A stretch of DNA of 36,620 bases from Candidatus Iainarchaeum sp. GTDB taxonomy: Archaea > Iainarchaeota > Iainarchaeia > Iainarchaeales > DTGL01. The first letter of the stretch is position 1. Each line of letters starts with the position of its first letter. The position numbers and the translations under genes were made by a program. The notes under the pieces are model-generated. The model saw nothing but the letters and a program-made list of their open reading frames with translations, made no database searches and was not told the DNA's origin. The DNA is taken from contig JAFCFP010000003.1 of assembly GCA_017608575.1 (NCBI GenBank), positions 1 through 36,620 on the forward strand, read 5' to 3'. Below, in pieces: positions 5,718-36,620 of this stretch.

Positions 5718-5726
5718 AGTAATCAC

Positions 5727-5746: not shown

Positions 5747-5882
5747 TTATTTATAAATTTATTGTTTTCAGGAATTCCCACAAAAAGCTAAAAAGTGCTA
5801 AATCTGAAATTATTGGCTTTTGATTAGCTGAATCCTTTGAATTTCCGCCCCCACTTTCTAATTCCAATTGCGCAACGTTAGT

Positions 5883-5965
5883 GCAGGAGGGAGGATTCGA
5901 ACCCCCGAAGGCACTAAGCCATACGGCCCTGAACCGTACCCCTTTGGCCGCTTGGGTACTCCTGC
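5883..5965 (-). tRNA. tRNA-Leu(CAG)
   Basis: Acceptor GCAGGAG/CTCCTGC, anticodon stem/loop TACGG-TTCAGGG-CCGTA, long variable arm TGGCTTAGTGCCTTC, T-loop TTCGAAT. Confidence 0.93.
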
Positions 5966-10970: not shown

Positions 10971-11110
10971 AAAACCATTAAAAGAGCAAAACAATTAATA
11001 AGAAAACGAATCAGTTGCTTGAATCCCTTAAAACACCCTGAAAAACCGAAAGAATATTAAATCCCTTTGGCTTAATTATTTCACTTATTTGTGTGCAAGA
11101 GCTGTTTAAA

Positions 11111-13936: not shown

Positions 13937-14278
13937 TCACTTGAACAATTCAAAGAATTTGTCAATTAATTTCTGTGAACTGTTTCCCAAATTCTTTGGA
14001 AGATTGCGTGAACTCCAAGCCCAGCTTGACTGCCATATTTGTTCTGATGCCTTTTTGCCGGTTTCATTCAATGCTTCCTGAAATAGCGTTGCCGGCGGGT
14101 GCTGTGGTTCAGCTTTGGCCAAGTCACTGTGAATTCCTTTTGCAATCCTTTTCCCATTCAACAAAATCCAAAAAAGCATTGCAATAATTCCCAAAACAAA
14201 AAGCATTGAACCAATTGTTTCATTTAAAAAAAAATAAACAGCAATGGAAAAAAGAAGAAAAAAAGCAAGTGCCTTCAT
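13937..14278 (-). CDS. Small membrane protein (two N-terminal TM segments, amphipathic C-terminus)
   Basis: 113 aa, 9 nt after the preceding gene of the minus-strand block. Confidence 0.7.
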   Translation of the reverse strand: MKALAFFLLFSIAVYFFLNETIGSMLFVLGIIAMLFWILLNGKRIAKGIHSDLAKAEPQHPPATLFQEALNETGKKASEQIWQSSWAWSSRNLPKNLGNSSQKLIDKFFELFK

Positions 14279-14287
14279 TTTCCAGCC

Positions 14288-14596
14288 TCACATTTCGCCC
14301 ATCATTCCGCCAAGGTCTGGTGCATAATACTCTGGCTGTTGTGGCTGTGGTTTCATTCCAATAATTATTGCAAGAATGACAAGTCCAAAAAGAATTAATG
14401 GAAGAAGCATTTTTATGTCATTCCAGTTATTAAACATGAACAATACTGCAACAAGAACTATGAGTACTATTGCAACACTAAAAGAACGCATTGAAAGAAT
14501 TAGCAGTATCACTGTTCCAAAAACAAGCCAGTTTTGTTCAAATTGAAAAGCCAGTAAAATAAAAATAATGGCAATTATTAATGTAAAAGTATCCAT
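14288..14596 (-). CDS. Small multi-TM protein, family copy 4
   Basis: MDTFTLIIAIIF...LSMRSFSVAIVLIVLVAVLFMFNNWNDIKMLLPLILFGL...; tail PQPQQPEYYAPDLGGMMGEM. Confidence 0.72.
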   Translation of the reverse strand: MDTFTLIIAIIFILLAFQFEQNWLVFGTVILLILSMRSFSVAIVLIVLVAVLFMFNNWNDIKMLLPLILFGLVILAIIIGMKPQPQQPEYYAPDLGGMMGEM

Positions 14597-14604
14597 TCAA
14601 ACCA

Positions 14605-14868
14605 CTAATACCTCAAATAATCCGGTTTTTTGTCTCCTTCCGGGATTTTTTCAAACATTCCCCTGAAAAAGAATGCAAAAAGGAACAATACAACAGGAAT
14701 CCATACAAGGAAAGGATACTGGTAAAAAGTCAAATACACTACTATGACAGCAAACAAGACAGCAAGCGTTACTGATCCAAGCTGCCTTTTTGCCCAAGCA
14801 AAAAGCCACACTAAATAAAACAATGAAAGCACTATCCAAAGGTTTGTCCACATATCTGCTTCAAACAT
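14605..14868 (-). CDS. Small multi-TM protein, family copy 3
   Basis: MFEADMWTNLWIVLSLFYLVWLFAWAKRQLGSVTLAVLFAVIVVYLTFYQYPFLVWIPVVLFLFAFFF. Confidence 0.72.
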   Translation of the reverse strand: MFEADMWTNLWIVLSLFYLVWLFAWAKRQLGSVTLAVLFAVIVVYLTFYQYPFLVWIPVVLFLFAFFFRGMFEKIPEGDKKPDYLRY

Positions 14869-14912
14869 TACCGCACCTATTCATTGTTCTTTTAAAGTTA
14901 ATAAATTCTTTT

Positions 14913-15239
14913 CTATCCCCTTCGCATGGTTACACTCAAACCCCAGATTACTACACTTAGGAACTGGAAAGCCAGCAATACATAAAAGAAAACAAACAAT
15001 GAAGAGGTAAGATAAGCGTGCTTTATCACAAGCAAATACACAAGAGCAGCTGTTATGATTAAGGTTAGTGGAGAATTTCCAAGATAGCCTTTTACTGTCA
15101 TGTAAACCATTAATGCAAGAAACACCCTCATTAAAAGATTTCCAGCGGGAAAGAGATACATTACAACTGGTGGAATAAGTGCAAGGATAAAAAATGCCCC
15201 GATTATTAGAATGAAAAGAGGTGTTCCGCGTTCATTCAT
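14913..15239 (-). CDS. Small multi-TM protein, family copy 2
   Basis: MNERGTPLFILIIGAFF...VKGYLGNSPLTLIITAALVYLLVIKHAYLTSSLFVFFYVLLAF. Confidence 0.75.
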   Translation of the reverse strand: MNERGTPLFILIIGAFFILALIPPVVMYLFPAGNLLMRVFLALMVYMTVKGYLGNSPLTLIITAALVYLLVIKHAYLTSSLFVFFYVLLAFQFLSVVIWGLSVTMRRG

Positions 15240-15243
15240 TCAA

Positions 15244-15672
15244 TCACCTTCCCATTGGCCTTTTTGGTTTTTGTTGCATTGTCCTTTGCTGCATTCCGCG
15301 TGGAACATTTGCGCCTTGGGCTTTTGCTTTGAGCATTGCCTGTTGTCGCATCATTAAGTCAACACCCGAGCTAACAGGCTGTGCTTCAGTTGGCTCTCCA
15401 CCCATTTGGCTTACAAAGAAGAAATCAATAAGAATGCCGCTTATTCCAAGGGTTAAAAGAGTGTAAAGGACAAAAATGCCGCCAAAAAACTTCCAGTAAT
15501 CAAAGAGCACAAACCATCCAAAGCCAACAATTAATGCAACAGAAAGCGGGCTTTTTCCAAGATGCGCCCATACAAACGAAACAATTGTAAGCAATGCAAA
15601 AATCTTCAAAGCCAGATTCAAGTCAGCAAACAATTCTCCAAAAAACAATGGAAATAATGTTATTTCAATCAT
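15244..15672 (-). CDS. Small multi-TM protein, family copy 1, with basic Gln/Met-rich tail
   Basis: ...FVWAHLGKSPLSVALIVGFGWFVLFDYWKFFGGIFVLYTLLTLGISG; tail MMRQQAMLKAKAQGANVPRGMQQRTMQQKPKRPMGR. Start 4 nt upstream of the next gene's region (stop 15244 / start 15239). Confidence 0.77.
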   Translation of the reverse strand: MIEITLFPLFFGELFADLNLALKIFALLTIVSFVWAHLGKSPLSVALIVGFGWFVLFDYWKFFGGIFVLYTLLTLGISGILIDFFFVSQMGGEPTEAQPVSSGVDLMMRQQAMLKAKAQGANVPRGMQQRTMQQKPKRPMGR

Positions 15673-15703
15673 TGCTTCACTTCCACTAAAAAACTATTGA
15701 ATT

Positions 15704-15716
15704 CTTTATTTAAATT
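15704..15716 (-). promoter_or_regulatory. Possible internal promoter (TATA-like) for the small-TM-protein genes
   Basis: Minus strand AATTTAAATAAAG in the 56-nt gap after giant gene A, about 35 nt before the ATG at 15672. Confidence 0.4.
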
Positions 15717-15728
15717 AGTTTGCTTTGC

Positions 15729-18700
15729 TCAGGAAGAGCCAATGCACTCTTCTCCGGCTTTAAGGCTCTTGCTGAAATCCTCAATTCCGCCAGCATAATC
15801 CAGTTCAGCGGGATTCCACCAGTAAAGGCTTTTTGAACCGGAATTTGAAACACAGATTTTTTCATCTTCAACCAGTGAGAAAAGGCTTTCAATAGAATCA
15901 ATATGGCTCAAAACGCTTTGGTCATTCCACTCCATGCCCTTTATTCCAGATAATTGTATTTCACTGCTTTCCTTACCATCAGGCAAAACAAACACTGCAT
16001 TTGGCGTTTCTAACTTTAAAATAATTTTTTTGTTCACTGGCGTGAAAAACAAATTGCTCAAATAAATCGTGCCGTTTTTGAAGGCAGAAGGCCACTCCAA
16101 GTAATAAGAATTATTCGAAAAACCATCCGGTGAATAGTAAAACACTTCGCTTATTGGTTCAGCCGAGAAATCCAAGCATTGCCCCAAGCCAGTCCAAAAC
16201 GCGAGAGCGCTTCCGGCTTTTATTGGCTCTGCTTCCTCAAAGAGCCTGTATTCAACCCTGAAAGGCCGGCTTGTTTTCACATGGGTGAATTTCATTATAA
16301 CAGGCGTTGCATAACCCGGCGAGAACTCAAAGCGAGCATTGTCACCGGTTTTTTCAACTGCAAACACTGTTCCGCGTGTTTCCATTTTGCTGTTAATTTT
16401 GCTTACGCTTTGCTCAATTGAAGTACTTATTTCACTCAAGGCATTGGAGTTCGCTATTTTTTCAAGGGCAATTCCTTTCTCTCCGCCTATGAGTTTTATT
16501 GCCTCGCCTTCAGGCAAGAAGTCAACTCCATAGCCTTGTCTTCCGTTTTCTGTTTTAACACCAACTAATCCATCAAACGGGATGTAATAAAAAATTGAAT
16601 TAGGGCTTGGCTCTTTGAGTTTGTAGAGTTCAACTTCAATGTTTGCATCAGGTTTGCCGTTTTCAAAGAAACTCCACTGTTTGTCGAAATCAATGCCAAT
16701 GAACACTTCATAGGTTCCGGGAGAGCTTAAGGAAATGCTTTCAGTGTATTTTTCTTTAATGGAAATCCTTTTGCCTTCAAAGAATTCTGACAATTCATCG
16801 CTTCCTCCAGCAAACCAATCAGGGGTTTCAAAGAATTGTCCTGAAGAATAATACTGTGCAAAGTCCTCCAAAAAATCTTCATTAAACGAATCCCTTTCAA
16901 GCAATGCCTTGAAATCAAAAAGCTTTCTCAAAAACTGCATTTTTTCCTCCCTTGTTTGGCCAGGCCAATTACTTGGAAACTGTGCATTTGCTGTAACAAA
17001 TTCTTTCCAGTTTGGAATATCCCTGTTAATAAAATAGTCAATTATTGGGTGGCCTTCCATTTTTTTGGTTGAATATTTGAGCCAGCACTGCTGCGATGAA
17101 TTGCTTACAACAAAGTAAATTGTTGCAACTCCTTGGTCTTCATCAATTGAAGCGCTTTCAACAAAAGCGCTTGCAGTGTAAAAAGAAACACCGCTTTCAT
17201 TCAAATCCGGAAAACTGCATTCAACAGTGTAGCTTTTCTTTGAACCAATTACCGGCGTTGAAACAAGGCACTCATTTGAGTAATTATTTGGGCCTGAAAG
17301 AGTGATTTTTACATCAGCATAAGCGGTTTCCGGTGAATCGTTTTTTACAAGCGCTCTTATTGTTGCATTTTGCTGTTTTACTTCAAAGTTAATGTTTTTA
17401 ACACCGATTTTTCCGTTTTCAACTTCCCTGTCACTTTTGTCCCTGCCGTGCTCTTCAATAAATTTTTGAATTTCAACTTCTGCTGGATCCAGTGGACATG
17501 AAAAATAATAATTGTTTTCTGCAAAGAATTCGTCCAGCATGTGAATCCTTTTGCTCAATGCAATACTGAACTGTGTTGCATCGCAATAAAACGCTTCTGG
17601 GTTGTCAGCATCACAGCTGTTCCATGCAATTGCCGAGTCATCCCAGCTCCAGGAAAGCTTGATTCTGGGCAATGCATTTTTGCCAGTATAGCCAACCCTT
17701 GAACCCATCAAGCAAGGAATTGCCTCTTTTGGGGCAGGAATTGCAACATCATTCAAATCAAAAGAGCTGCCAGTAACCAATTTCAAGTGGAATTTTTGGG
17801 AATACTCACTTGAATCAGTATCAGGCACATTAAACGGGCCAAATTCAGCACTGTTCATTGAAACAATTGGCTTTATATGCAATGGATCACCATGAATGTG
17901 TTCCGGCAACTTAACCGTTAAAATGCCATATTCTGGCAATGGATCTTCTACATGGGAATTATTTACAATAGTTAACGCGCTCACTTCTTTTTTCTCTGAC
18001 AAAATTTTCTCCATTTTTGAATTGTTTAATTCAATGGAAAAATTGCTCAGAGAAATTCCCGCTGTAGCTTCTTCCAGCCGCATTACATAATCTTGGAGTG
18101 GAAATGACTGCTTTTCAATCTGGCACTCAGGTCCAAAAATATATGAAGCAGATTGAAATACTGCTGAGGCGCCGGCCATCACTGCAGCACAAGCAGTCAT
18201 TGTAAAAATATTTCCGGTTGCAGAACAAGCTGCAAAACCGCTTCCTGCAGCTGTCAGCACGTTTCCAAAGTATTCCTGCATGGAAAATTTATTTTTGGCC
18301 ATTTCATTCATGACAATGTTCCAATGGCATTCCTTGGGAGGGTTTTCTGGATGCTTGCATTCAGTGCAATAATTTGCCCTCACTTGCACTTCCTCTGACA
18401 AATTGGAATTGGTTATTTCAATTGAATCCTTCCAATTGGTTTCTTTTGAAACCACTGCTTCATAACGGCTCAATGAAAGGAAATCTCCCTCGCTTGGCTC
18501 AACCAAAACATCAACAATTCCAACAAGCTTAAACTGCCCGTTTTTTGTACGCACGTGCACTGTAATGCCATACAAGCCAGGAATTTCCTTCCTGTAAACA
18601 CTAATGCTTTTCTCACTCTGCGATTCACTTAATTCAAACTCTTTTGGTGTTACACCAATGCCTCCCTCAGTGTTGCCACTGCATTCGCTGTCACCACGGC

Positions 18701-21700
18701 ATAATTCAACAAACAATTGCACTGGACCACATTCTTTTGATGAAACCAAAAAATCAGTGCTTTCCTCGCTACCCTCAATTTTCACTGCCTGGGTTGGCAG
18801 TTTAAGGCATTCATCCAGATTAATAATGCTTATTTCACTGTTAATTGCTGCAGAGAAATCATTATTCACTTGCACCAAGCCGTCTTTTGAAAACGCTTCT
18901 CCATCAAACCAGACAGTGAACTTGGCGGTTTTCCCCAAATAACCGGTTTTTGGAGTAAATGAAAGAACCGCATTATATGTTCCATATTCGCTTGATTTGA
19001 ATTCCTCGAAGAGTTTTACTTTTTTGCCCGGCCTTAAAACCTCGCTTGCCGAAATACCGCTTGGACTCGTAACAGTCAATTCAACAATTCCCGAAATGCT
19101 TGAATCCCATTCAATTCCAGCCAGAAGAGATTCAAGGTTTACAGGGCGAGAGGCTTGCTCGCATGCATTGACTATTTCAAACTCGGTTGAAGCGCGGTTT
19201 TTTGTTGTAATGGTTTTCCATTCAGGCACTGTTGCGCCGTCCAAATAAATGCAGGGCGCATTATCGGGCATTCCCGCAGTTGAAATGTTAACCAAAAGCG
19301 GAATTTCTGAAGAATACTCAACGTTCCTTTCACTGCCTTCAAAAACAATAACAATCTTCATTTCAAGTGACTTGGATGCTTTCAACAAATCACTGGCTTC
19401 AGGCGAAAGCACTGTTTTTGCAATCTGCAATTCAATTGAATCCAGCGCATTAATCTCTTTCTCTGAATTCAGCATTGAAAAGGAATTCATTGCATCCAAG
19501 TCAAGCAAGCCCTTGCTGTTCCCCAAAATACCGATTTCCTTTATTTTAATATTCATTCCAGAAAGGTTTTCAATTTCAACTGCAAATGTTTCGCTTCTTT
19601 TAATGCCCGGATTGAGTGACGATTCCAAAAGAGAAGGCGTAATTTTTACAATTTCGGTTGTTATTTCCCTTTCAATCTTTTCCGGCGAAAAACCGGCTTT
19701 TTCCGCTTCAACAACCAGTTTTGTTCCAGGCGGTGAAGCAGGCAATTCAATTGAAGCAATTCCAAGCGAATTGGTGTGTTGTATCCAGACATGGCTCTCT
19801 GTGCCGGGAATCCTTCTGGTGAACCTCACTAGCACATTCTCTAATGGTTCTCCTGCAGAATTTTTAACCATTGCATCAATCGGTGTTTTCACAAAAGCAG
19901 GAATTAATTCAGGCGAGGCATCAAGGTAGAGTTTTTCAGCCGAAACAACACCAAAGTCAACCACTTTTTCAAGGGCAATTTTTCCATCAGCCACAAGCAA
20001 TATTTTAAACTGTGAATCCTTTACTTCAACAGGTTGAAAAATCAATTCAATTTCAATCTCTTTGTTCTGTGAAAAATCACCCAAGTCTTCAAGCAATATT
20101 TCATTATTCACTGCTTTCACTTCAATTGTTTGCCCTGAAGCGTTCCTCAAAACCGCTTTCTCAATCCTTAAAATGTTTTCTTTCAAGCCATCAAATTCAT
20201 TCACAATCAAAACCCTGCTTTCGCTGTAAGCACGGGGAGAATTATTCAAAAGAACAAAAGAATAATTATAATCGGAAAAAACCGTTGTAACAAATGGTTT
20301 TTCCAAAAAAAGCCTGTCCTTTTCACTGAAAAGCCATTCACCTGTAATGCAGAAATCCCCTTCACAAGCTGGAGCGCTTCCCTCAAAAAAAACAAGCGAA
20401 TTTGCCTCTGCATAAAGCCCTTCTTTTGATGGAGCATTTTCTTTTTCCCCCAAAACAGCATCAAATGGCTCCCTGTAATATTTGCCGTCCTTTACAGCAT
20501 AAGCCCTATAATGTAGTGAAAGCCGTGTTTTTGGAAGTGTTGTTTGCCTGACTACAAATTCAACAGAAACCCTGAATGATTCCCTTAAAGGATTAATCCA
20601 TTCAATGCTCGCCCATTTGGCTCTACCGCTTGAAAGAATCTCGCGCTTTAAGCCATTTGACGAATCAAATGTTTCACCCAAAATAATTGAATCAATTCCG
20701 GAAGCATTAATGCTGTTTATAAAAAGCGGATCGCTTGCCATGTTTGCTTTGTCACCGGTTCTCACATGAAATCCTATTTTGTCAAACTCCCGTGCATGCG
20801 GCATTGCAACAACAAAAACCGCGTTGTACTTCTTTCCAGCCAAAAGCAATTCCTGCTTTTTACCGTTTTGATAAATGCCTTCAAAAAAAACCATTGGTTT
20901 TTTTCTGAGAGACCTTTGCCTCATTTCCCCTATTACCTCAAAAGAAGTATCAGGCCAGAGCTGTATTTCCTCGCTTTGAAAACTCATATACGCTGGATTC
21001 TCAAAAACAACAAACACTCTTTCATCTGCTTTAAGTGAGTAAAACTTTTCACCTGACACCATTGGAATCTTTCCACTCAGGCTTTGCCCCCTTGAATTGA
21101 ACACTTCAATTTCAGTATTTGGAACAAGTTCTTTGTCTTCATTCAATGCCTTGATGTGCAAAGTGCAGTCTCCAATTACAAGTCTCACAGTAAACTCATT
21201 CAATCCAGCAGGATTAATCAATGAAGAATCCTCAACAGAACCACCGCTTGCCGGGTATTTCACTGCGAATGGAAAAACGCTTCTTTCAATTCTGCCAAGG
21301 GAAAAAAAAGCATAGCCATTAACATCAGTGAATTTGTAGTTTTCCCTGCCATTCAATTCCACAATTCCCTCAGTGTCAGAAAACCTGAACATTACTTTTG
21401 CATTCTCCACCGGCTCATTGTCTTCATCAAGTACTCTTACAATTGTCCTGCCGCTATTTTCCTCGGTTATTTTTTCAAGCATTATTTGAATTTCAGAGTT
21501 AATGTCGGAAACAACAACGCTTTTAGCAAAATAGCCCTCTCCAATGCCGCCTTCCTTTTTTGCTACAATCATGAAAGGACCAGCGTTTTTCACTTTGAAT
21601 TCAACCGTGCTCGCATTCAAGCCAGTGTTCTTTTCTTCAATGAACAAGTCATTCAAATCCTTCAATTTAACTGTTGCGTTTTTTATTCTCGTGCCCGTAG

Positions 21701-22691
21701 CTTTATCCAAAACAACAACCTTTATTGAGCCAATTGTTTTTGGATTCATTTCAATGCTTATTTCGTTCGCCCTGCTGGCTTTAACTTCAACAAAAAGCAC
21801 TCTAGCAGTAGCAAACTCGCTGGTTGGGTCTCCAACAAGCACATTATAAAAAGCAGGCACCAAGTCAGGGAATTCCACTTTTCCGTGGCCATTAGAATAA
21901 GCTTCATTGCTGTAAGAATCGCTTTCAATCCTCACCAAAAAATTTTTCTCCCTCAACAGTTGCCCGGATTCATCAACAATTTTAACCACAAGAGAGCCTT
22001 TCACTGGCTCTTTCTCTTTAAGCCTTAACACTTTTTCGGTTTCACCCTCTCTAAAGCTTGCCAGTGACGGTCTATAGTCAGGGTCTTCAACCCTTACACT
22101 CATAAGCCCGCAGTTAAGAGGCAACAAAACCTCAATTATTCCATCCATGTCTTCGTCAAATTCCCTCCAAGGAGAAATTGCCTTGTTTTCGCATTCAATT
22201 CTTGCCACAATTCGTTTGCCGGTAACAAGCCCCTTTGAATCCTCAAACAAAATGGTCCTCTTCTCTTCAAACCGCTGGGTTTTTTTGAGCTGGAATAATT
22301 CAAGTGAATCAGTAGATCCAACAAAAACAGTGAACTCTGCTTTTTGGAATCCTTTCTTTTCAACAAAAAACCTGACTTTGCTTTTTGCAGGCACTTTTAT
22401 TTCCAAAAGGCCTTCACTGTTTGTTTTAGCTGAATTTTGAGGCAGACTATTAACACTGTATTTAACAATTGTATTGGAAACAGCACTGCCATTTTCATCT
22501 TCAAGTTTAACAGTCAATGAAACAGTTTTTTCTCCTTTAGGCCAAGGAATCAAAAAAATAAAAAAAGCACACAAAGCCAAAGCAACAAATATTGCAAAAG
22601 CAATCCTTTTCCAGCCAACCCTTTCAGCAACTCCAAGAAACGAATCAACAACAGCAAAATAAAGCTCTCTGAGGTTATCACCTAAAGGCAT
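15729..22691 (-). CDS. Giant membrane-anchored Ig/carboxypeptidase-regulatory-like repeat surface protein (paralog A, 2320 aa)
   Basis: N-terminal tail LRELYFAVVDSF, single TM (IAFAIFVALALCAFFIFLIPW), repeats such as SIKVVVLDKATGTRIKNATVKLKD, domains shared with the two neighbouring giants, C-terminal CVSNSGSKSLYWWNP. Confidence 0.88.
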   Translation of the reverse strand: MPLGDNLRELYFAVVDSFLGVAERVGWKRIAFAIFVALALCAFFIFLIPWPKGEKTVSLTVKLEDENGSAVSNTIVKYSVNSLPQNSAKTNSEGLLEIKVPAKSKVRFFVEKKGFQKAEFTVFVGSTDSLELFQLKKTQRFEEKRTILFEDSKGLVTGKRIVARIECENKAISPWREFDEDMDGIIEVLLPLNCGLMSVRVEDPDYRPSLASFREGETEKVLRLKEKEPVKGSLVVKIVDESGQLLREKNFLVRIESDSYSNEAYSNGHGKVEFPDLVPAFYNVLVGDPTSEFATARVLFVEVKASRANEISIEMNPKTIGSIKVVVLDKATGTRIKNATVKLKDLNDLFIEEKNTGLNASTVEFKVKNAGPFMIVAKKEGGIGEGYFAKSVVVSDINSEIQIMLEKITEENSGRTIVRVLDEDNEPVENAKVMFRFSDTEGIVELNGRENYKFTDVNGYAFFSLGRIERSVFPFAVKYPASGGSVEDSSLINPAGLNEFTVRLVIGDCTLHIKALNEDKELVPNTEIEVFNSRGQSLSGKIPMVSGEKFYSLKADERVFVVFENPAYMSFQSEEIQLWPDTSFEVIGEMRQRSLRKKPMVFFEGIYQNGKKQELLLAGKKYNAVFVVAMPHAREFDKIGFHVRTGDKANMASDPLFINSINASGIDSIILGETFDSSNGLKREILSSGRAKWASIEWINPLRESFRVSVEFVVRQTTLPKTRLSLHYRAYAVKDGKYYREPFDAVLGEKENAPSKEGLYAEANSLVFFEGSAPACEGDFCITGEWLFSEKDRLFLEKPFVTTVFSDYNYSFVLLNNSPRAYSESRVLIVNEFDGLKENILRIEKAVLRNASGQTIEVKAVNNEILLEDLGDFSQNKEIEIELIFQPVEVKDSQFKILLVADGKIALEKVVDFGVVSAEKLYLDASPELIPAFVKTPIDAMVKNSAGEPLENVLVRFTRRIPGTESHVWIQHTNSLGIASIELPASPPGTKLVVEAEKAGFSPEKIEREITTEIVKITPSLLESSLNPGIKRSETFAVEIENLSGMNIKIKEIGILGNSKGLLDLDAMNSFSMLNSEKEINALDSIELQIAKTVLSPEASDLLKASKSLEMKIVIVFEGSERNVEYSSEIPLLVNISTAGMPDNAPCIYLDGATVPEWKTITTKNRASTEFEIVNACEQASRPVNLESLLAGIEWDSSISGIVELTVTSPSGISASEVLRPGKKVKLFEEFKSSEYGTYNAVLSFTPKTGYLGKTAKFTVWFDGEAFSKDGLVQVNNDFSAAINSEISIINLDECLKLPTQAVKIEGSEESTDFLVSSKECGPVQLFVELCRGDSECSGNTEGGIGVTPKEFELSESQSEKSISVYRKEIPGLYGITVHVRTKNGQFKLVGIVDVLVEPSEGDFLSLSRYEAVVSKETNWKDSIEITNSNLSEEVQVRANYCTECKHPENPPKECHWNIVMNEMAKNKFSMQEYFGNVLTAAGSGFAACSATGNIFTMTACAAVMAGASAVFQSASYIFGPECQIEKQSFPLQDYVMRLEEATAGISLSNFSIELNNSKMEKILSEKKEVSALTIVNNSHVEDPLPEYGILTVKLPEHIHGDPLHIKPIVSMNSAEFGPFNVPDTDSSEYSQKFHLKLVTGSSFDLNDVAIPAPKEAIPCLMGSRVGYTGKNALPRIKLSWSWDDSAIAWNSCDADNPEAFYCDATQFSIALSKRIHMLDEFFAENNYYFSCPLDPAEVEIQKFIEEHGRDKSDREVENGKIGVKNINFEVKQQNATIRALVKNDSPETAYADVKITLSGPNNYSNECLVSTPVIGSKKSYTVECSFPDLNESGVSFYTASAFVESASIDEDQGVATIYFVVSNSSQQCWLKYSTKKMEGHPIIDYFINRDIPNWKEFVTANAQFPSNWPGQTREEKMQFLRKLFDFKALLERDSFNEDFLEDFAQYYSSGQFFETPDWFAGGSDELSEFFEGKRISIKEKYTESISLSSPGTYEVFIGIDFDKQWSFFENGKPDANIEVELYKLKEPSPNSIFYYIPFDGLVGVKTENGRQGYGVDFLPEGEAIKLIGGEKGIALEKIANSNALSEISTSIEQSVSKINSKMETRGTVFAVEKTGDNARFEFSPGYATPVIMKFTHVKTSRPFRVEYRLFEEAEPIKAGSALAFWTGLGQCLDFSAEPISEVFYYSPDGFSNNSYYLEWPSAFKNGTIYLSNLFFTPVNKKIILKLETPNAVFVLPDGKESSEIQLSGIKGMEWNDQSVLSHIDSIESLFSLVEDEKICVSNSGSKSLYWWNPAELDYAGGIEDFSKSLKAGEECIGSS
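16525..16592. repeat. Near-identical DNA segment shared with 23550-23617
   Basis: 43 bp identical (actccatagccttgtcttccgttttctgttttaacaccaacta), about 66/68 matches over the full segment. Confidence 0.9.
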
Positions 22692-22720
22692 GCCATTCCC
22701 ATTATTCAGTTTTTTTTCTT

Positions 22721-28700: not shown

Positions 28701-30229
28701 ATGCTCACATTATAAACAACCTTTTGGGATTCCCTGCGTATAAATTTCTTTTTATCACTCCATCCGCTCACGCTGCCCTTGAATGCAAAAACCATGTATG
28801 TTCCGGTTTCAACGCCTTTGAATTCAGCTTCACCGTTAATATCAGTAAGCAAGTTTTTGAATCCTACTGCATAGCCGTGTTCATCATAAAGTCCAACAGT
28901 TGCGTGTTCTATTCCTCGGCCTGTTTCATCAATTACTCTTGCTAAAAGAATTCCCCCACAGTCGCCAGTGTACTTTTTTATTTTCACTTCAATTATTTCA
29001 TTGCTTTTTCTCACATTTTCCAGTCTTTGAATGCAGTAATCCTCATGGTTTACTATTAAAATATAGCCAATGTCTTCATGAATATTAAATTCCACTACGC
29101 CGTTTTGCGGTGTTTCCTTGTAGAATACTTGCTGGTTGCCTTTCTTGAATGTAACTCCAGCATTCTTCACTGGTCTGTTTGTGCGTTCATCAATTACCCT
29201 TACTTTAATGCTTCCAATAACCCTTTCCTCCAATTCCAGTTCTGTTCTCACCGTTCCTTTTGCCTCCAAGTCAAATGGAAGTGATTCTTTAACACTGAAT
29301 CGCTGGGTTGCAAGGCTTCTCACAAAGTATTTTCCGGGAGAAACAGTAAATTCAACCTGCCCTGTTGTAGTATTCTGGCTGTCGACTCTAATGCCGTCAG
29401 CCGAGCCAGTGTCCTTGTAAAGATAAACAGTTAATTCTTCGCCGGTAATCAATTCACCGTGTGATTTAAGTGAAACAATTATTTTGCCTCTTTCATCCTC
29501 TGCCTCTGAAAGAAAAATTGTTCCATTATTGGTTACTTCCTCTGAAAGCTTTTTTTCATAGCCCGCAGCGGAAACATTAACCTTCAAATGCCCACAGTTC
29601 TTTGGAACAGCCACTTCCACTGTACCGTTTTCAGAGAATATTCCCGCAGGGTTTTCAGCGTCTTCATTAGAGCACTGGAATTCAATCCACGCCCTGTCAA
29701 TTGGCTGGAAAAGCTTTTCGTCCATTATTTTGAACTTGACATACTCAAATGCCTTTTCTTCCACCAATTCCACTACTTTTTCAAACACTGGCTTGTTTAA
29801 AACAAACGAGCCCTCAAATGGCTTTGGAGAATAACCTTCTTTTTCAATGGAAATATACACCCTGCTTCCCAGGGGGATTTTTATTTTCTCTGTTTTGCCG
29901 TCCTCCGCAGTCAATAGGAATTTTTTAATGGTACCAGCTTCAAGGTCAACTCCAATGCCCTTTAATGGATTTCCCTGCTGGTCTTTAACCATTACCACGA
30001 GTTCAGATGTGGCAGTTGGAAGAGGCCCCTGTGTAAGAACAAACATCAAGCCAAGAGCAATTAAAACAAAAACCACAAGCAAAAGCAATGCAAAGGAGGG
30101 CACAACACTGTCAATTTTATCCACTATCTTGTAAAGTATGCGTGAATTAATCCTGTCAATTAACCTATAATACCTGTCCTCCAGGTGGAAGTACAGGTCC
30201 CTTGCAGAATCAACAATTCCCATTTTCAT
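22721..30229 (-). CDS. Giant membrane-anchored Ig/carboxypeptidase-regulatory-like repeat surface protein (paralog B, 2502 aa)
   Basis: N-terminal tail ARDLYFHLEDRYYRLIDR, TM (FALLLLVVFVLIALGLMFVL), repeats such as SIKVRVIDERTNRPVKNAGVTFKKG, Cys-rich modules with Ser/Thr/Pro/Glu-rich linker, C-terminal CVTGYGNEVRTTFFWNP. Confidence 0.88.
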   Translation of the reverse strand: MKMGIVDSARDLYFHLEDRYYRLIDRINSRILYKIVDKIDSVVPSFALLLLVVFVLIALGLMFVLTQGPLPTATSELVVMVKDQQGNPLKGIGVDLEAGTIKKFLLTAEDGKTEKIKIPLGSRVYISIEKEGYSPKPFEGSFVLNKPVFEKVVELVEEKAFEYVKFKIMDEKLFQPIDRAWIEFQCSNEDAENPAGIFSENGTVEVAVPKNCGHLKVNVSAAGYEKKLSEEVTNNGTIFLSEAEDERGKIIVSLKSHGELITGEELTVYLYKDTGSADGIRVDSQNTTTGQVEFTVSPGKYFVRSLATQRFSVKESLPFDLEAKGTVRTELELEERVIGSIKVRVIDERTNRPVKNAGVTFKKGNQQVFYKETPQNGVVEFNIHEDIGYILIVNHEDYCIQRLENVRKSNEIIEVKIKKYTGDCGGILLARVIDETGRGIEHATVGLYDEHGYAVGFKNLLTDINGEAEFKGVETGTYMVFAFKGSVSGWSDKKKFIRRESQKVVYNVSMTIPNGKLRVRVLDDEMQPLPFADVALKRAVDNKLLKGPMPVQDENGWIEFTEKAGEEVFVVVSKDGYTDYTSSSVKIPANSTKEIEVMLEPKIISGEMKAKFLGLFKGNQKATILGAGQEYTAKFQIRIPENKDYKFIGLHVRTGKENTMEKDMVFIKGYNAPAAPIISKGTSYNPDEGFDFDSRFKTADGAKWINFKWGKFNSGKFDVEVKIKVKDITKQGQQVPIYWRAWAETDNGEIVRDPEDNSLGSTETERELYANTDVKLFQVGIETLCTDKWCFAGSILDIEDEIMQPVSDSFGAIVGKQYKLSFKILNDSPFESDIFDNAKIRVLTKDSAILIGEYQIIGPQGDKIEGNANSSILDWVEIGDLTPSKDVSGTIYFTPKSAISSSLLIQVHSRYSIVFEKEIVIDSAAANELSVKFKKDGEYVEDIGLLPSGVEQTLTVKVLDKASELEIEGASVKVVDRFGSVLGNETTTFFGIADVIMPVLTPGEKLSLVVQKANYMPFEKTLSVDDQILEVEPSNLNITLNAQTSPEKSLNVLLRNKTSLDLKIELLDVTGDFEGLIDTEKTGQWLYSEYAGENIPANSSKNISLKMFLTDFGKSVKETKTLKGKFTARVFSSGKTWIIERPLSVVIGLGGEVDDTACFSLSKHSWKDATEVSPRNADVTISNNCTVNGKPIELQDLSAKIEWNSNHLGEFKIGIKGENSLEIRPSFFKIIRKSIGKEESLPALLSFIPDGGNFGTAKATIVVQAKNPTASGEQLLQDSIDVEITVVSLDSCLRFSKDLIKLKPNEEGSFEISTGDCGGKVDLRIISELNVGSKEITMGSNDSHTVTVLSEERIPGQYPIYVKFRAAGKNEFEVAKLIRVLIEPTEGCIKLNRYEYDIYDDPNNPYDGFDVGKIINSCPSKRVSGTVKFNEKNLCKAIRSGFVTGIIGLVYGGMQAVSLGRPFYAIGPSCEEKGGIKCPKGYECSEPLISASNTSRCCKGTCTKIETETPATSTNTANTSNPSNETVNEPAIEPSPSPETSSEEASPETGTGGSEVIPPSENPTDQSEGSNELLTCSEMGGVPCDAGQCEKKTCGQTCTWSVIPMVKALDTDNCCVGGTCVPTGIMAKERPVFGSRTGLMAFAGIDVGSVLGPLAESLGNIINVDNMWEGLLVGWVAGSAYNYLVVQNAGTITFDVVADDLAITALRILYPSGREDRDAPGISIEMSNEKTEKTEGLEFGRKETEIIFQNSGGVTQENPVSPIYRILKVEGERRDYETTYAPGGSEEISNVWDVLNSLWDAVNVFDNCEETGYSQEEAESFAADGSNLTVKSADKYFQKFHLQFNSYKPEEPEPVNIPGESCKIGTRIGKTGAEAMPKILLKWNWNAISMDTCDEGAGETYCDATQFSIELLKKIHRIDELLAGKTFTCPSESGVLEDVSQALSDREEDVAITRVKVEKDGKKAKVIATIESNNNKEMQVETIIQLVKESDGSVVECPDGVLSIDLISRSTAECSFENLGEGLYSVNVSINPLLNTCTEECKNLDTGNDSLNAKLNVGSSSNAFRVCEPYSTSRLSDFLKANPGNAALEEAMKLSNFKALLIRDGYTKDFRNDFDEFCENDFFGTPAYYSTEGGGLSQYFTNNDLMSFKSYFIERNNFIPEGKYQVNIDIVYKDDSWSLFREGEPNATIEVELSRLDTPRPNSPFYYMPFDGLVGVKTENGRQGYGVNFREESPATLKINNDPSQLIYSSTIAHSSPVQGGWVYTNRIDDFRTLNNTRRGVILDVVRNPDLEETTINLSPSKATPIILKVSGGKSDKAFAFYSVTVDGEPQQVGSYLTTWTGIGKHCYDFEDNEMTETYQETPDLHGGVGMTECAGSFSTSSYGLEWCNIKRKGNVFLKTMFFTPLESESILKAVEGMDSMSFISPSSNATNQVYLNGIVSQNIESIESILQLVEAGEVCVTGYGNEVRTTFFWNPEKVLENTLGQTMESVPQQCIAPFTEE
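23550..23617. repeat. Near-identical DNA segment shared with 16525-16592
   Basis: See partner copy; encodes MPFDGLVGVKTENGRQGYGV. Confidence 0.9.
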
Positions 30230-30294
30230 TACCCCGACTCATTTTTTTTAATCCTACCCATTTATTTATTGCTTCTTTACTTTATTAAACGTTT

Positions 30295-33200
30295 TTACGG
30301 CTTCAAATCCTCCAATATTTGTGGATTCCACCATAGCACAAGTTTTCCATTGTCCGGTTTAACGCAGACTTCGCTGCTTTTAATTCCCTGCACAAAGAAC
30401 TTAAATGACGGTGGCTTAAAATTGTCAGCTGAAACATTAATGAAAACCGCTCCGCCGGAGATCCCCTTAACTTTATCAGTGCTTCCAATCCTGCCATCAA
30501 ATGTTTTTGCCTTTATTTGCGTTTCTTCCTCTGCGCACACTAATTCGAGTGGCAAATCAACAGCTTTTCTTTCAAAAGGCATGAAAGCCAAAGCAATCCA
30601 TTTGCCGGGTTCTTGCATTTTTACTTTTGCCATTTTTCTTTGCCCAACCCATTCAGAGCAAAACTCATAATTTGAACCATCATATGTTCCAAGCGAATCG
30701 GTTTCCTTTTTATCCTCTCCAATCCACCAAGTGAACAATTTTTGTGCATTTCCATAAAATTCATCAAATTTTCTGTCAAAGCGGTAAAAGACAGTGTTCT
30801 CCAAGCCGTCATTCCATGACAACTCCAATCCAACAGGTAGTGAAGGCAAGTACTTTATTGCCTTATTCTCCAAATCAATTTCCATTACTTTGCCTGGGCT
30901 TTCCATTGAACCTTGCAGTTCCGGGAATCCATCCACAAAGTTAATCTCCATTTTAGTCTTTCCGGATGCAACACTGTTTTCCGGAACAGTCTTCAATGCA
31001 GCATGCCCATTGGCTTGAGCCGAATCATAAAAGTAATAAATTTCCTTGTCACTGTTCTTTTCAAACACTACTCCATAATCTACATCGCTTTCCTCTGAAG
31101 CAAGCAATCCCTCGCTGGCATCAAATGGCAAATAAAAGAAGGGATTTTTTGCATAGTTTTCATTCAATTCATTAATCCCTTTATCCAATGCCAGTTTTAT
31201 TTTGTACGACTTAACCTTTATTCTGTCACCATCAATAAAAACAGTTGGCGTAACCTTGAAATAATACTTTCCGGTTTGCACTTCAGTGCCCAGCGCATTA
31301 GAGAATTCGGAAGTGCTTTCATCAAACGAGGCATAATTCTCAAACTCCAATTCAGAGGAATCCAAATCAAACGAATAGTTTCCATAATCAATGAAGTTTT
31401 CCACAAAGTTCGGGGAATAATTATCACTTATAAGGAACGCGCTGTTAATTGCAGTAGTGTGGTTGTCAATGCATTCACTGCAATCAGCCAATTCATTCAA
31501 TTCAGTTGCCTTCCCAATCACGAGCTCTTTTGTTGCATCGCTTAAATTATTCTTGTTAATCACTCCAACCTTGAATTCAATGCCAGAATAAAGCTTTTTG
31601 ACAAAATCAAGCCATTGCCCTCTTGAATGTTTTTTGGTTGTAAAATTTGAAAACTGGATTGAAAAGCCGTCTTCGTTTTCCGGAGCAAGAGCAATTGAAA
31701 CAAGGCCCTTGTGCAATTCCTTAAAGTCATTAAATGCAATAACCCAAGCGCCCAAATCCATATTCTGCTTGAATATTGCCTTATCACTGCCCACCAATTC
31801 AGTCCAAACCTCGTTGTCATTAATGCTTCTCGTAATGCCCACAATGTTTTCCGCTCCAAAATCGCTTCCATAGCATTCAATGAATTCTGCCTCAATGCCT
31901 TCAAGCGAAGAAGTTGGATTGCCTGTGGATGAAATTAATTCCTCAAGTGTGTGCTTTAAGGCGGAAGCATTAGAGCAATCTTTTTTCACTGGCTCAAGCA
32001 ACGAGTCATTGTCTTTCATAAAGAACAGGAATTCCCTGCCGGTTTTTTCCTCTTTAATGGTTGTCTGCTTTTTTGAAAACCTGAAAAGGTTGCCGGGCTC
32101 CGGCACAAAGCCGTTTTTGAGCACTCTGGCATATTCAGGGAATTGGTTTATTTTTTTCACTGTTTCCTGCACTCTTGCAATTTTATGCCTCAATGAAAGC
32201 ATGAATTGCACGCCATCACAATAATAGCCAGTACTGCCAGAAACAACACATGAATTCTCTCCAAAGTCATCCTCTTTCCAAGAAAAAGCCAAGTGATTAA
32301 AACCATAATCGTTGAAGGCTTTTTCACCTGTTTCATCCTCAGTGCAAGGGCTAAAGCCAGCGAATGTTTCAGCGCCCTCAGGCCTCAGCACTTTAACAGT
32401 TGAATGGTTTTTCTCAGAACAATCCCATTTATCGCAGGCAATTGCGACACATTCATATTCCTGCCCTGTTCTCGTCAGAGTGCTTTTCAATGAAAGTGAA
32501 TTCTGTGAACCCTTTGAATGAGCAATAACCCTTCCATTATGCAACCAATTAATATCATAAGAAAGCCTGTCTCCTTCCGGGTCAACCGCTTTTGCAGTGC
32601 ACACAATGTCATTCTCTGTAAGCGGTTTTACTGGTTCAATTGTCAGCTCTGGTGCGCTTGGAGGGAGATTCTCTTTTGGCTTTCTTTCAGACAACCAATT
32701 CCACCACTTTGAAAAATCGTAAGGCACTTGGAATGAAACCTGCCTTGGAGCAAAGCTCTGCATTGCTGAATCTGGTAGCCTGTAAGGAATGAAAACAACT
32801 CCAGGGGAAGTAACTGAAAAATTGTTAACAATAATATTTCCCAGTTTTCCAAGCTCCATTGCGCTGTCAAAATCGTCAAAGTCTTCCTTTATTTTCTCCT
32901 TCAAATTGAAAGAAAATTCCATTACCTCAATTGTTTGGTTTTCTGACACCTTTACAGTGTGCGGTGGCATTGCATAAAAGTTTTCAATAAGCGGGCATTG
33001 TTCTTTTTGCTCGCCATTGCTTTGCGGCGAATAACACACAAAGTTTTGCGGTGAAAGCATTTCAAGCCTGAAACCATAATCATAACAGCGATTGAAGACT
33101 GTGCCCTTTGTTTTAAAAATTCCGAAAAAATTCGGCTTGAAAACAGTGGGTTCAATTGAAGGCATGCATTTCTGCATTAATTCATCCAAATTCACTACTT

Positions 33201-36200
33201 GCACATCAACCGATCCTATAAATTCAAAGTCATCCTTTGAAGAAAGCGTTCTCGCATTCACTCCCATGGAATAAGAACCGCTTTTTACACCGGCTTCAAC
33301 TCTGACATTTGAGCTTTTCCTTGGATTCAGCTCAATGGATTCCTTGTCCACAGAGAGTCCATCAGGCACATCAATGCTTATTTCAATAGTTTCATTGCAC
33401 TCGTTTTTAAGCTTGAATGAAGCGCTGCTGTTCGAAGACCACTGCGTCGCGGCTTCACTGCCTGAACTTGAACTCCAGCCATTCACTCCATAAAAGTTTT
33501 GAGGAGCAGAACCATACATTGAATAATCCCCAACACCGCTTGGATAGGTTGAAAACCCATATGGCTGGTATGGCTGCGAGGAATAGAAATAATTGCTTCC
33601 AAGAGCCCAGCCCAGATTGCTTGGCTGGGTTTTAATTTTTAATGGTTCAGTGGCTTCAATTTTAACGCATTTTGAAAGATTGCTCAAAGAAATGGTTGTT
33701 GAAATTCTTGCTTCAACTGATTCAGTTCCATTAAACGAATTGTGCTTTGCCCTTAAAACAACAGCTGGCATTGAATCAGCGCTTTTAATTGTTTTATTGG
33801 GCGAAAAAGAAACAAGCAGTGCTCCATTGAAGTTTCCCTTTAACTCTGGAGCAAGTAGAACGAATTCAGTGCCAAGCTCTTTTTCCTGTGCCTTTAAGTC
33901 ACTGCTTGAAACAAAAAAAGAGCCAACAGAATTATCAGCGCCCCAATCAATTCCTGCTTCCAAATCCCGCAATGAAACACTCTTGCCGTCAGCACTGCAA
34001 GCGTTTTTGAGTTTTACGCTTAGTTTTTTCTCTTCCCCGCCTGAAACAATCTCCCAAGAAACAGGTTCCACCAAAAGACAGTCCAGTGAATCAAGTTCCC
34101 CGCCAAGCAGAATTCTCACCCTCACAGGCACCTTGCTGAACCAGGTTTTGCCTGTTTTGCTGTTTGAAAGATAAAAGCCAATGCTTCCATGCAATATTTT
34201 TGTTTCGGTTAAATTCTTTCCCTTGTCAGTCAGCTTTGCAGTCAACTGAACAGGCAGTGATTCATTCAATGGCAGTTCCAATCCAATGAGTTTTTCAATT
34301 CCCCTAATTGAAACAAGTCCTGAAAGGGAATCGCTTATGCTCACGCCGGCAATTTCAAGCTTTACGGCAGTATCATTCAATAACTCCAAGTCAATCTGCT
34401 TGAAGTTCCTTTCATCAACCATTAAATCAAAATTAACCCTTTCTGGCTTTATGCTGATGATATCCTCGCTTATTTTAATAGTTTTTTTCAGTGTTCTATA
34501 ACCGTTCTTTTTCACTTCCACTTTTAATTCAGAACCAGCATTGGGTGCTTCAAGTTCAAATGCAAACACTCCAGAACTGTCTGTTGTTCCTTGCACCAAT
34601 TCATTTCCATTAAGGGAAAGCCTTACAAAAGCATTTGGTATTGCCTCGCCATCAACTGTTAAAACCTTGAACAATAACTGGTTGTCAATAAACGGCACAA
34701 CCTGTTTGGGGACAATTTCAAGTTTCAATTCTTCTCCGGCTCTTACATTCACTTTAACTGTTTTTGTGAAGTCATTTCCAGATTCATTTGAAAGCGATAT
34801 TTCAATCTGGTTGACTCCTTCTTTAATGGTTTCAAATTCAACGCTTGCAGAGATCGTGAGGTCCTGCGAAAGATTACCAATCTCTTTCAAAAATTCACTT
34901 GAATTTGCACTGCCCTCAATCTTTCTTCCAGTTGCATCAAATATCTTGTAATTTTTAAACAAAATGCCCTTTTCAGGGTTCTTTATGCTGAGAAACGCGT
35001 TTTTAAGTGTTCCGGCTGAAGAACGGTTAATGCGTAATCCAAGCGCATACTGGCTTGAAACATTAGCCGGAAAAGAATCAATTACAGCGCTCTTCAATCC
35101 TGTTTCCATGTCTTCAATGAAAACAATTGAGCAATAGCCCTCACTGCAGAGATTTGTTTGCCCGACAGTAAAAGACCTGTCATATGTTTTGGCATACAAG
35201 CCCTGTTTTTTTGGGCTTGAAGCATTATTTCCAAGCACTGCATCAATTGGATCCCTTTCATATCTGGCATTAACACCATAACCTCGGTAACTAATCTTTG
35301 TTTCCTCACCCATTGCCGCATTGTCTCTAATTTGTATTTCCACTAGCGCATTAAAAACACCCTTTGATGGCAAATGGTTTTTTCCCGGTTGGAATTCAAT
35401 TTCAGCCCATTTGGTGCTGCCAGTGCTTGTCCTGTCAGCACTGCTGCCCATTGGCGGAGAAAAAGTGGAGCCAGTTTTAATGCTTCCAACAGTGGAAATG
35501 CTCCTAATAAAAACAATGTCTTCTTCAACAGAGTTTGTTTTTCCCTCTTCGCTGTTGCCAGTGAGAACAAACAAACCGGCTTTTTCATAGCTTCTTGGTA
35601 ATACTACTTGCAGTAATGCTTTGTATGTTTCTCCTGCAGAAACGAAGTCACGCACTTCTTCGCCGTTAAGCGTCAGCTTCATTTTTGTTTCAATTTTTCC
35701 GGTTTCTCGCATTAATTCAGCTGTAATTTCCTTGGTTGAATTGTGCACTGGTACAACAGGAATTGAAGTAAACGGAAGGAAGCCATCTGCTTCGATTACA
35801 AAGAAAGCCTTTCGGTCAATTCTCACTGAAAACAATGCAGTGCCATCACTTGAGGTTTTCTTCTCTCCAATTTTTGCACCGCTAAAGGCATCAAATGCCT
35901 TGACTGTTGCATTTTGGACGCTTTGTCCTGAATCAAGCACTTTTACTGAAATGCTGCCTTCGCCTATAACCATTGTAACAGAAACGTTTACAAGTTCTCT
36001 TTCCTTGACAGTGAAATCATTGCTTGACACGCCGTCAAAGCCGTTCTTTGAACAGTACACATAATACTTTCCAGCTTCAATTGAGGGAAATTCAGCCATT
36101 CCATCCAAGCCAGTTATTGCTTCATAGCCAGTGAACTCTCCACTGGACAATTTTAATTCAACTTTTGCGTTTTCAACAGGTTTTCCCTTTTTGTCAACAA

Positions 36201-36620
36201 CACTTACACTGATTGCGCCGCCGTTTTGCGAGGTTTGTTCTTTTAATGTTATTTCAAAGAACTCCTCTTGTGGTAAAACCTCAGCTCTTGCCTTGAAAAA
36301 CCCTGGTTTGTCAACCACAATATCGTAAAGTGTCTGTGGTGGAACATTAAAAGTGTATTCTCCCGATTCATTTGTGTTGCCTGAGTATTCAGCAATTGAT
36401 TCATTCTTCCTGTAAAGCTTTAAGCCAGCGTTTTTAACTGGTGTTCCCGTTGAATCCACAACCCTTATGTTTATTTTTTCTCTGGCAGCTTTCTCCATTT
36501 TTATGTTAAATGTAATGCTGTCGTTTTCATTCAATGTTTTTTTCTGAGTGGTAATGTCCTGGTATTCTGTTGTATCCATTACCTTCAAATAATAATCTCC
36601 AACAGGAACATCTTTGAACA
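30295..36620 (-). CDS. Giant Ig/carboxypeptidase-regulatory-like repeat surface protein (paralog C), truncated by window edge
   Basis: Frame stays open past the track start to the window end (FKDVPVGDYYLKVMDTTEYQ...). Same middle domain (ISYRGYGVNARYERDPIDAVLGNN...KKQGLYAKT) and C-terminal CVKPDNGKLVLWWNPQ. Confidence 0.87.
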   Translation of the reverse strand, partial: FKDVPVGDYYLKVMDTTEYQDITTQKKTLNENDSITFNIKMEKAAREKINIRVVDSTGTPVKNAGLKLYRKNESIAEYSGNTNESGEYTFNVPPQTLYDIVVDKPGFFKARAEVLPQEEFFEITLKEQTSQNGGAISVSVVDKKGKPVENAKVELKLSSGEFTGYEAITGLDGMAEFPSIEAGKYYVYCSKNGFDGVSSNDFTVKERELVNVSVTMVIGEGSISVKVLDSGQSVQNATVKAFDAFSGAKIGEKKTSSDGTALFSVRIDRKAFFVIEADGFLPFTSIPVVPVHNSTKEITAELMRETGKIETKMKLTLNGEEVRDFVSAGETYKALLQVVLPRSYEKAGLFVLTGNSEEGKTNSVEEDIVFIRSISTVGSIKTGSTFSPPMGSSADRTSTGSTKWAEIEFQPGKNHLPSKGVFNALVEIQIRDNAAMGEETKISYRGYGVNARYERDPIDAVLGNNASSPKKQGLYAKTYDRSFTVGQTNLCSEGYCSIVFIEDMETGLKSAVIDSFPANVSSQYALGLRINRSSAGTLKNAFLSIKNPEKGILFKNYKIFDATGRKIEGSANSSEFLKEIGNLSQDLTISASVEFETIKEGVNQIEISLSNESGNDFTKTVKVNVRAGEELKLEIVPKQVVPFIDNQLLFKVLTVDGEAIPNAFVRLSLNGNELVQGTTDSSGVFAFELEAPNAGSELKVEVKKNGYRTLKKTIKISEDIISIKPERVNFDLMVDERNFKQIDLELLNDTAVKLEIAGVSISDSLSGLVSIRGIEKLIGLELPLNESLPVQLTAKLTDKGKNLTETKILHGSIGFYLSNSKTGKTWFSKVPVRVRILLGGELDSLDCLLVEPVSWEIVSGGEEKKLSVKLKNACSADGKSVSLRDLEAGIDWGADNSVGSFFVSSSDLKAQEKELGTEFVLLAPELKGNFNGALLVSFSPNKTIKSADSMPAVVLRAKHNSFNGTESVEARISTTISLSNLSKCVKIEATEPLKIKTQPSNLGWALGSNYFYSSQPYQPYGFSTYPSGVGDYSMYGSAPQNFYGVNGWSSSSGSEAATQWSSNSSASFKLKNECNETIEISIDVPDGLSVDKESIELNPRKSSNVRVEAGVKSGSYSMGVNARTLSSKDDFEFIGSVDVQVVNLDELMQKCMPSIEPTVFKPNFFGIFKTKGTVFNRCYDYGFRLEMLSPQNFVCYSPQSNGEQKEQCPLIENFYAMPPHTVKVSENQTIEVMEFSFNLKEKIKEDFDDFDSAMELGKLGNIIVNNFSVTSPGVVFIPYRLPDSAMQSFAPRQVSFQVPYDFSKWWNWLSERKPKENLPPSAPELTIEPVKPLTENDIVCTAKAVDPEGDRLSYDINWLHNGRVIAHSKGSQNSLSLKSTLTRTGQEYECVAIACDKWDCSEKNHSTVKVLRPEGAETFAGFSPCTEDETGEKAFNDYGFNHLAFSWKEDDFGENSCVVSGSTGYYCDGVQFMLSLRHKIARVQETVKKINQFPEYARVLKNGFVPEPGNLFRFSKKQTTIKEEKTGREFLFFMKDNDSLLEPVKKDCSNASALKHTLEELISSTGNPTSSLEGIEAEFIECYGSDFGAENIVGITRSINDNEVWTELVGSDKAIFKQNMDLGAWVIAFNDFKELHKGLVSIALAPENEDGFSIQFSNFTTKKHSRGQWLDFVKKLYSGIEFKVGVINKNNLSDATKELVIGKATELNELADCSECIDNHTTAINSAFLISDNYSPNFVENFIDYGNYSFDLDSSELEFENYASFDESTSEFSNALGTEVQTGKYYFKVTPTVFIDGDRIKVKSYKIKLALDKGINELNENYAKNPFFYLPFDASEGLLASEESDVDYGVVFEKNSDKEIYYFYDSAQANGHAALKTVPENSVASGKTKMEINFVDGFPELQGSMESPGKVMEIDLENKAIKYLPSLPVGLELSWNDGLENTVFYRFDRKFDEFYGNAQKLFTWWIGEDKKETDSLGTYDGSNYEFCSEWVGQRKMAKVKMQEPGKWIALAFMPFERKAVDLPLELVCAEEETQIKAKTFDGRIGSTDKVKGISGGAVFINVSADNFKPPSFKFFVQGIKSSEVCVKPDNGKLVLWWNPQILEDLKP

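Follow-up and report, generated by a model that had tools for sequence, protein, structure and literature searches.

The closest described systems to the locus reported here are SPEARE, comprised of single 8,880–9,409-amino acid (aa) proteins with a Sec signal, WD40 propellers, and a C-terminal transmembrane (TM) segment plus VirB4/TraG ATPase (PMC10266531), the archaeal type IV pilus family (archaellum FlaI/FlaJ, bindosome Bas, and Tad), the archaeosortase/exosortase-CTERM systems (TIGR04178), and a predicted archaeal secretion complex (arCOG01314/arCOG02884) defined by a DUF4350 protein, a MoxR ATPase, and vWA proteins (PMC5898192). A review also shows, for DPANN, pilus islands that carry TadC and "specific surface proteins" (PMC6393860). 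A literature search on Diapherotrites surface proteins, pili, archaeosortase, and peptidoglycan, with subscription papers mostly outside its coverage, did not find the locus described. It was found in Candidatus Iainarchaeum sp. (GCA_017608575.1), a Diapherotrites archaeon from the same order as AR10 (CP010424.1), where the window, meaning the whole 36,620-nucleotide (nt) stretch that was analyzed (contig JAFCFP010000003.1, positions 1–36,620), encodes three giant immunoglobulin (Ig)-like proteins followed by five small membrane proteins. As in the arCOG01314/arCOG02884 complex, Ig-like surface proteins are clustered with small multi-TM proteins; no DUF4350, MoxR, or vWA family was found among the proteins scanned.

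The window is the downstream part, with three of the four giants, of an approximately 50-kb locus, which is well supported and would encode one surface apparatus. The reading that we tentatively favor, with a probability of about 0.45, is a type IV-filament-linked surface contact apparatus that cuts bacterial walls in some lineages. Genomes, contigs, and loci are given below as G, C, and L numbers.

Organization and Conservation of the Locus

The window represents the left part or the whole of contig C2 of the source genome (1.10 Mb, 90 contigs). Its eight consecutive open reading frames, all on the minus strand between 13937 and 36618 with intergenic gaps of 9, 8, 44, 4, 56, 29, and 65 nt, agree with the block of short-gapped genes (4–65 nt) in the original prediction and encode three mutually homologous giants (2,320, 2,502, and at least 2,107 aa; 27–36% identity) and, as had also been claimed, five small membrane proteins with two to four hydrophobic helices each. 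Giant B (30295–36618) is a CarboxypepD_reg/Big_1/bMG3/MG4 Ig-like array of an expected ∼2,350 aa, truncated at its 5′ end by the contig edge. As the gene is 5′-open and has no start codon inside the window, its anchor is not visible there; an anchored N terminus of 241 aa that matches the absent part lies at the terminus of another source-genome contig, C76 (L113:11947–12671). Giant C (22721–30229; 2,502 aa) has a juxtamembrane motif and one N-terminal TM (residues ∼47–66) before its Ig-like array, and giant D (15729–22691; 2,320 aa) consists of an N-terminal TM, an Ig-like array with an internal Gly/Ala-rich hydrophobic segment, and a conserved C-terminal module. TM1 (15244–15672; 142 aa, three TMs) immediately follows giant D and forms one paralogous family with TM2 (14913–15239; 108 aa, four TMs) and TM3 (14605–14868; 87 aa, three TMs). 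TM4 (14288–14596; 102 aa, three TMs, with a Pro/Gly/Met-rich C-tail), a conserved family, and TM5 (13937–14278; 113 aa, two TMs and an amphipathic C-tail) are families of their own. None of TM1–TM5 matched a known family in Pfam or NCBIfam. Suggestions such as an NMN (nicotinamide mononucleotide) transporter or M50B came from sub-threshold matches and were dismissed.

Beyond the window, contig C76 contains, on the minus strand, the N terminus of a T2SSE ATPase. An archaeosortase-like protein of 213 aa is encoded divergently from it and is followed on the same side by giant A (2,804 aa), a pilin-like protein of 556 aa, and the giant N terminus (241 aa) at the contig end; the remainder of the ATPase lies with T2SSF on contig C58. 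In well assembled relatives these genes are contiguous: six prepilin-like genes, T2SSF, and T2SSE come first, and running divergently from them are archaeosortase, giant A, the pilin-like protein (550 aa), giant B, (a 4-TM protein), giant C, giant D, and TM1–TM5, after which come p224, a HerA-like gene, p171, PolB, and M24. The original prediction had recognized no secretion ATPase, which holds inside the window but not for the locus, where T2SSE, T2SSF, and the pilins occupy the opposite end in divergent orientation. The missing ATPase is an effect of the contig boundary, as the gene sits on C76/C58 just off the window. Likewise, the proposed surface giants with membrane-protein neighbors were recovered, but the block starts beyond the window edge and includes four giants rather than three.

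The giants were matched in 55 of 57 relatives and TM1 in 51. Across 92 genomes of the class, the core of the giants was matched in 82 and their C-terminal module in 77; members of sister orders match the core only, and weakly, with the C-terminal module unmatched. Searching species genomes with a profile of the C-terminal module gave nearly exclusively Candidatus Diapherotrites or archaeal metagenome-assembled genomes (MAGs), including GW2011_AR10 (CP010424.1), and the few matches labeled Chloroflexi, Thaumarchaeota, Falkowbacteria, or Micrarchaeota look like mislabeled MAGs, although this is not proven. Most of the compared loci derive from MAGs. Giant D is followed by TM1–TM2 in 20 loci, usually with TM3–TM5 next, and since the same gene order recurs across about 20 families the block is conserved beyond chance, as the original prediction required. 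Archaeosortase and the specific ATPase lie within 13 kb of each other on one contig in 32 genomes, as counted from match coordinates. Of two further genomes, G091 belongs to a sister order and shows the complete arrangement, with two giants, and G080 has one giant with archaeosortase, ATPase, T2SSF, and small TM genes. Giants A–D form reciprocal orthologue groups and, in a tree of the core, separate clades with support of 93 (A), 91 (B), 99 (22 of 24 D), and 99 (22 of 24 C), the exceptions being long branches from G009 and G026; judged from these sequences, all four groups are ancient. In three families giant D has been duplicated in tandem, which produced an additional giant (L225 in G023, L228 in G026, and L232 in G042).

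The conserved order could also be coincidental, with independent adhesins, pili, sortase, and membrane proteins kept together by slow rearrangement. Synteny does reach into the housekeeping genes PolB, M24, and sometimes HisRS, which counts against a functional unit; as PolB and M24 are retained as well, the synteny is partly slow rearrangement and co-location alone is no proof of co-function. Yet the order is kept across those families and a sister order while the flanks past M24 and past the NLPSLPE gene (see below) decay, TM3–TM5, p224, the HerA-like gene, and p171 are inverted as a single block in G001, and giants, TM1, and the specific ATPase are jointly undetected in the incomplete genome G010. 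We therefore regard mere coincidence as improbable. The main structural exception is G009, with additional genes between giant D and TM1. No TM3–TM5 were found there within the stretch examined, and in G001 TM3–TM5 stay with the HerA-like gene and not with the giants; both observations qualify the proposal that the small proteins anchor or export the giants. Elsewhere, the surroundings of the TM genes include lineage-specific cargo, namely additional genes for an M64-like metallopeptidase and a Lon-C-domain protein (L088:16390–18756 in G024; L095:2712–5015 in G037).

A Type IV Filament-type Motor and a Candidate Archaeosortase Substrate

The ATPase, whose source-genome parts lie on C76 and C58, is of the hexameric T2SSE type (PF00437, 4.3e-18 in G018), and its best NCBIfam matches are FlaI (1.5e-42), TadA (1e-37, likewise in G018), and BasE (2e-19), all below the equivalog cut-offs. 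The adjoining T2SSF protein (775 aa, many TMs; PF00482, 6.9e-6) has the features of a platform protein. The six prepilin-like frames have N termini of the K/R-G type (KGQ, KGF, SGQ) as read from the sequence, and are predicted only; no Pfam or NCBIfam family matched them, and the 550-aa pilin-like protein has a weak match to the minor pilin ComGF, obtained via its 490-aa AR10 homologue. On the basis of the ATPase and platform matches the motor is assigned to the type IV filament superfamily. Several homologues of the ATPase carry long in-frame insertions at a recurring site (query residues 489–495 in G016, G030, G031, G032, and G034, and 550–552 in G045), giving open frames of 959–1,835 aa, and these insertions are probably inteins.

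The archaeosortase-like protein has four TMs and scores 30.6 bits against TIGR04178 (cut-off 23), with the triad Cys104, Arg146, and His166 invariant in 14 sequences. Beyond the pilin operon, eight relatives, with the source genome not among them, encode a secreted protein of ∼1,500 aa that ends in an N/SLPSLPE motif, a TM, and a basic tail. The sister-order version of the motif is NLPLFPQ, and the motif had no non-C-terminal match in 59,387 residues. The tail matched no NCBIfam CTERM model; its architecture makes the ∼1,500-aa protein the likely substrate of the archaeosortase. The locus thus ties together an archaeosortase, its probable substrate, and a pilus-type motor.

Structure of the Giant Proteins

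In every complete giant, a juxtamembrane segment, as a rule bearing a FYxxLExKYY-type motif, precedes one N-terminal TM, after which Ig-like domains follow that match CarboxypepD_reg, Big_1, bMG3, and MG4. The original prediction had described single-anchor repeat proteins; the repeats are tandem Ig-like folds and not sequence repeats, and the anchor of giant B is off the window. The TM is internal, preceded by ∼45 aa, and carries no prepilin signal, which is not the arrangement of a filament subunit. Membership of the α2-macroglobulin family, which would call for the complete macroglobulin architecture with its thioester domain, was rejected, as Pfam gave only isolated MG3/MG4-like Ig matches and the core resembles generic Ig strings.

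An 830-aa core (giant C residues 590–1419) is common to B, C, D, and partly A, and was modeled as a string of β-sandwiches with a predicted local distance difference test score (pLDDT) of 87.8 and a predicted TM-score (pTM) of 0.49. Foldseek retrieved only generic multi-Ig chains for this model, with a query TM-score of at most 0.19 among the best 50. The Ig-domain matches and the model support the earlier view of the giants as surface-anchored, stalk- or adhesin-like proteins. A variable Cys-rich linker connects the core of giant C to a conserved 675-aa C-terminal module, which folds confidently (pLDDT 88.2, pTM 0.75) and in which only a CARDB-like Ig subdomain of ∼120 residues matches solved structures. 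The module is also reused outside the locus, in source-genome proteins of ∼300–860 aa (L114, G000:C1:4027–9929; L115, G000:C75), some of which carry it behind a short N-terminal hydrophobic segment. The Gly/Ala-rich hydrophobic segment of giant D (residues ∼1471–1525) keeps its position near residue 1500 in every one of the 14 orthologues examined, and a comparable segment of giant A lies near residues 2040–2370 in nine of nine. Giant A is conserved until approximately residue 2100 and hypervariable beyond.

Murein Hydrolases and the Proposed Function

Murein-hydrolase domains are found on giant A in three families. The C terminus of giant A bears glucosaminidase and Amidase_2 domains in G018 (1.7e-28), NlpC/P60 (2.7e-6), Amidase_3 (1.4e-19), and glucosaminidase (9.4e-10) domains in G020, and a glucosaminidase domain in G008. 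Moreover, separate proteins lie between archaeosortase and giant A in AR10 (1,016 aa, Amidase_3 and glucosaminidase) and in G018 (803 aa, glucosaminidase). These domains are rare in the order, with Amidase_3 in 4, Amidase_2 in 3, and glucosaminidase in 11 of 57 genomes, and by our count 5 of 16 distinct proteins of murein-hydrolase families sit in this locus, which occupies ∼5% of the genome. An hhalign comparison of the giant A tip with the lysozyme fold, bearing on the idea that all tips are degenerate lysozyme folds, returned a probability of 23%. In addition, a Diapherotrites MAG encodes a 1,766-aa protein (L220, G021:C4:1281–6578) combining M23 peptidase, GH3, Amidase_3, and CBM domains, which is, from its domain content, a multi-enzyme murein-degrading protein. 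Peptidoglycan hydrolases with which archaea kill bacteria have been described, in a report that does not mention Diapherotrites (PMC12352652).

For most DPANN archaea, the mode of contact with partner cells is an open question. Because the locus takes about 4–5% of the genome, is nearly universal in the order, and can be traced to sister orders, it is a strong candidate for partner interaction. To our knowledge, the partners of Diapherotrites have not been established; in some lineages the murein-hydrolase tips suggest bacterial rather than archaeal partners. In the contact apparatus that we propose, the giants would be inserted co-translationally and held by a membrane base of TM1–TM5, which may anchor or export them. 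Together they would build a heteromeric stalk or adhesin long enough to reach other cells, either put together around the pilin machine or moved by it, with giant A as the distal subunit with a variable tip. In some lineages this tip, or a neighboring secreted enzyme, would cut murein. On contact, the Gly/Ala-rich segments of D and A may enter a membrane, and the archaeosortase would tether the separate ∼1,500-aa NLPSLPE-CTERM surface protein. The partners would be cells, bacterial in some lineages.

A number of observations weigh against this proposal. Murein-hydrolase domains occur at the locus in only four of the genomes examined, and none was found in the source genome, its giant A included. 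The ATPase of G009 lies ∼440 kb away from the giants, and the best archaeosortase match there is weak and located elsewhere. Most of the C-terminal module gave no function-suggesting match to PDB sequences, by Foldseek, or to viral structures. Furthermore, the giants lack prepilin signals, and any interaction between giants and pilins is putative. A bolder version sees a phylum-wide contact machine, not described before, that carries four giant Ig stalks upon a type IV filament-type motor and presents a variable tip, murein hydrolases included, to breach the walls of bacterial hosts or prey, with some DPANN archaea exploiting bacteria; it is rated as unlikely.

Alternatively, the giants could be the cell envelope itself, forming a surface layer (S-layer)-like or periplasm-spanning four-subunit scaffold. 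Envelope biogenesis would then be the task of the archaeosortase, the small membrane proteins, and the NLPSLPE protein, and the pilus operon would be a neighbor. Their near-universal presence in the order, their anchored N termini, and the association with an archaeosortase fit such a role, and Ig-, CARDB-, and CarboxypepD-type folds occur in S-layer proteins too, with SbsB among the structure matches. However, four distinct anchored subunits of 2,300–3,400 aa are atypical of lattice proteins, as are a hypervariable giant A tip with murein hydrolases and the hydrophobic segments of giant D, and the pilus operon and archaeosortase remain beside the giants in sister orders. An envelope scaffold is a rather unlikely explanation, albeit the strongest competitor of the contact apparatus.

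Neighboring Genes

Three conserved neighbors downstream of TM5 are of uncertain membership in the locus: the coiled-coil proteins p224 (13259–13930, plus strand, convergent) and p171 (11093–11605, plus strand), and between them a HerA/DUF87-like protein (11609–13117, minus strand) that is also conserved in a sister order. Further into the window, a RelE-like toxin is encoded beside a ribbon-helix-helix-like antitoxin (5232–5735), as read from the sequence, and the transfer RNA (tRNA) calls conflict, with 154–241 called by Rfam and not ARAGORN and a tRNA-Leu at 5881–5965 by ARAGORN and not Rfam.

The HerA-like neighbor raises the possibility of a SPEARE-like host-subjugation channel, in which the giants bind the host and a HerA/VirB4-like protein powers secretion. 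Giant Ig proteins of nanohaloarchaea are fused to or adjoin VirB4/TraG ATPases and have been proposed as secretion straws (PMC10266531), and the HerA-like gene is conserved as far as a sister order. The family consensus of this gene, however, lacks the GK[ST] Walker A motif, the giants have no VirB4 fusion, and their anchor position and size are unlike those of SPEARE, making such a channel very improbable.

Comparison with Known Systems

The contact apparatus that we favor shares with SPEARE its occurrence in DPANN, the enormous membrane-anchored Ig arrays, a secretion-type ATPase gene nearby, and a proposed role in host contact (PMC10266531). It differs in having four N-terminally anchored paralogues of 2,300–3,400 aa, T2SSE/T2SSF, and an archaeosortase, and no SPEARE-type ATPase domain was found in the window giants or giant A. 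Like the archaeal type IV pilus family, it has a T2SSE ATPase, a platform protein of the T2SSF type, and several predicted prepilin-like proteins; what sets it apart is their linkage to giants A–D, an archaeosortase, and TM1–TM5. Finally, the Cys/Arg/His triad and a candidate substrate with a motif-TM-basic C terminus are common to the locus and the archaeosortase/exosortase-CTERM systems, whereas the giants themselves carry no sorting tail.

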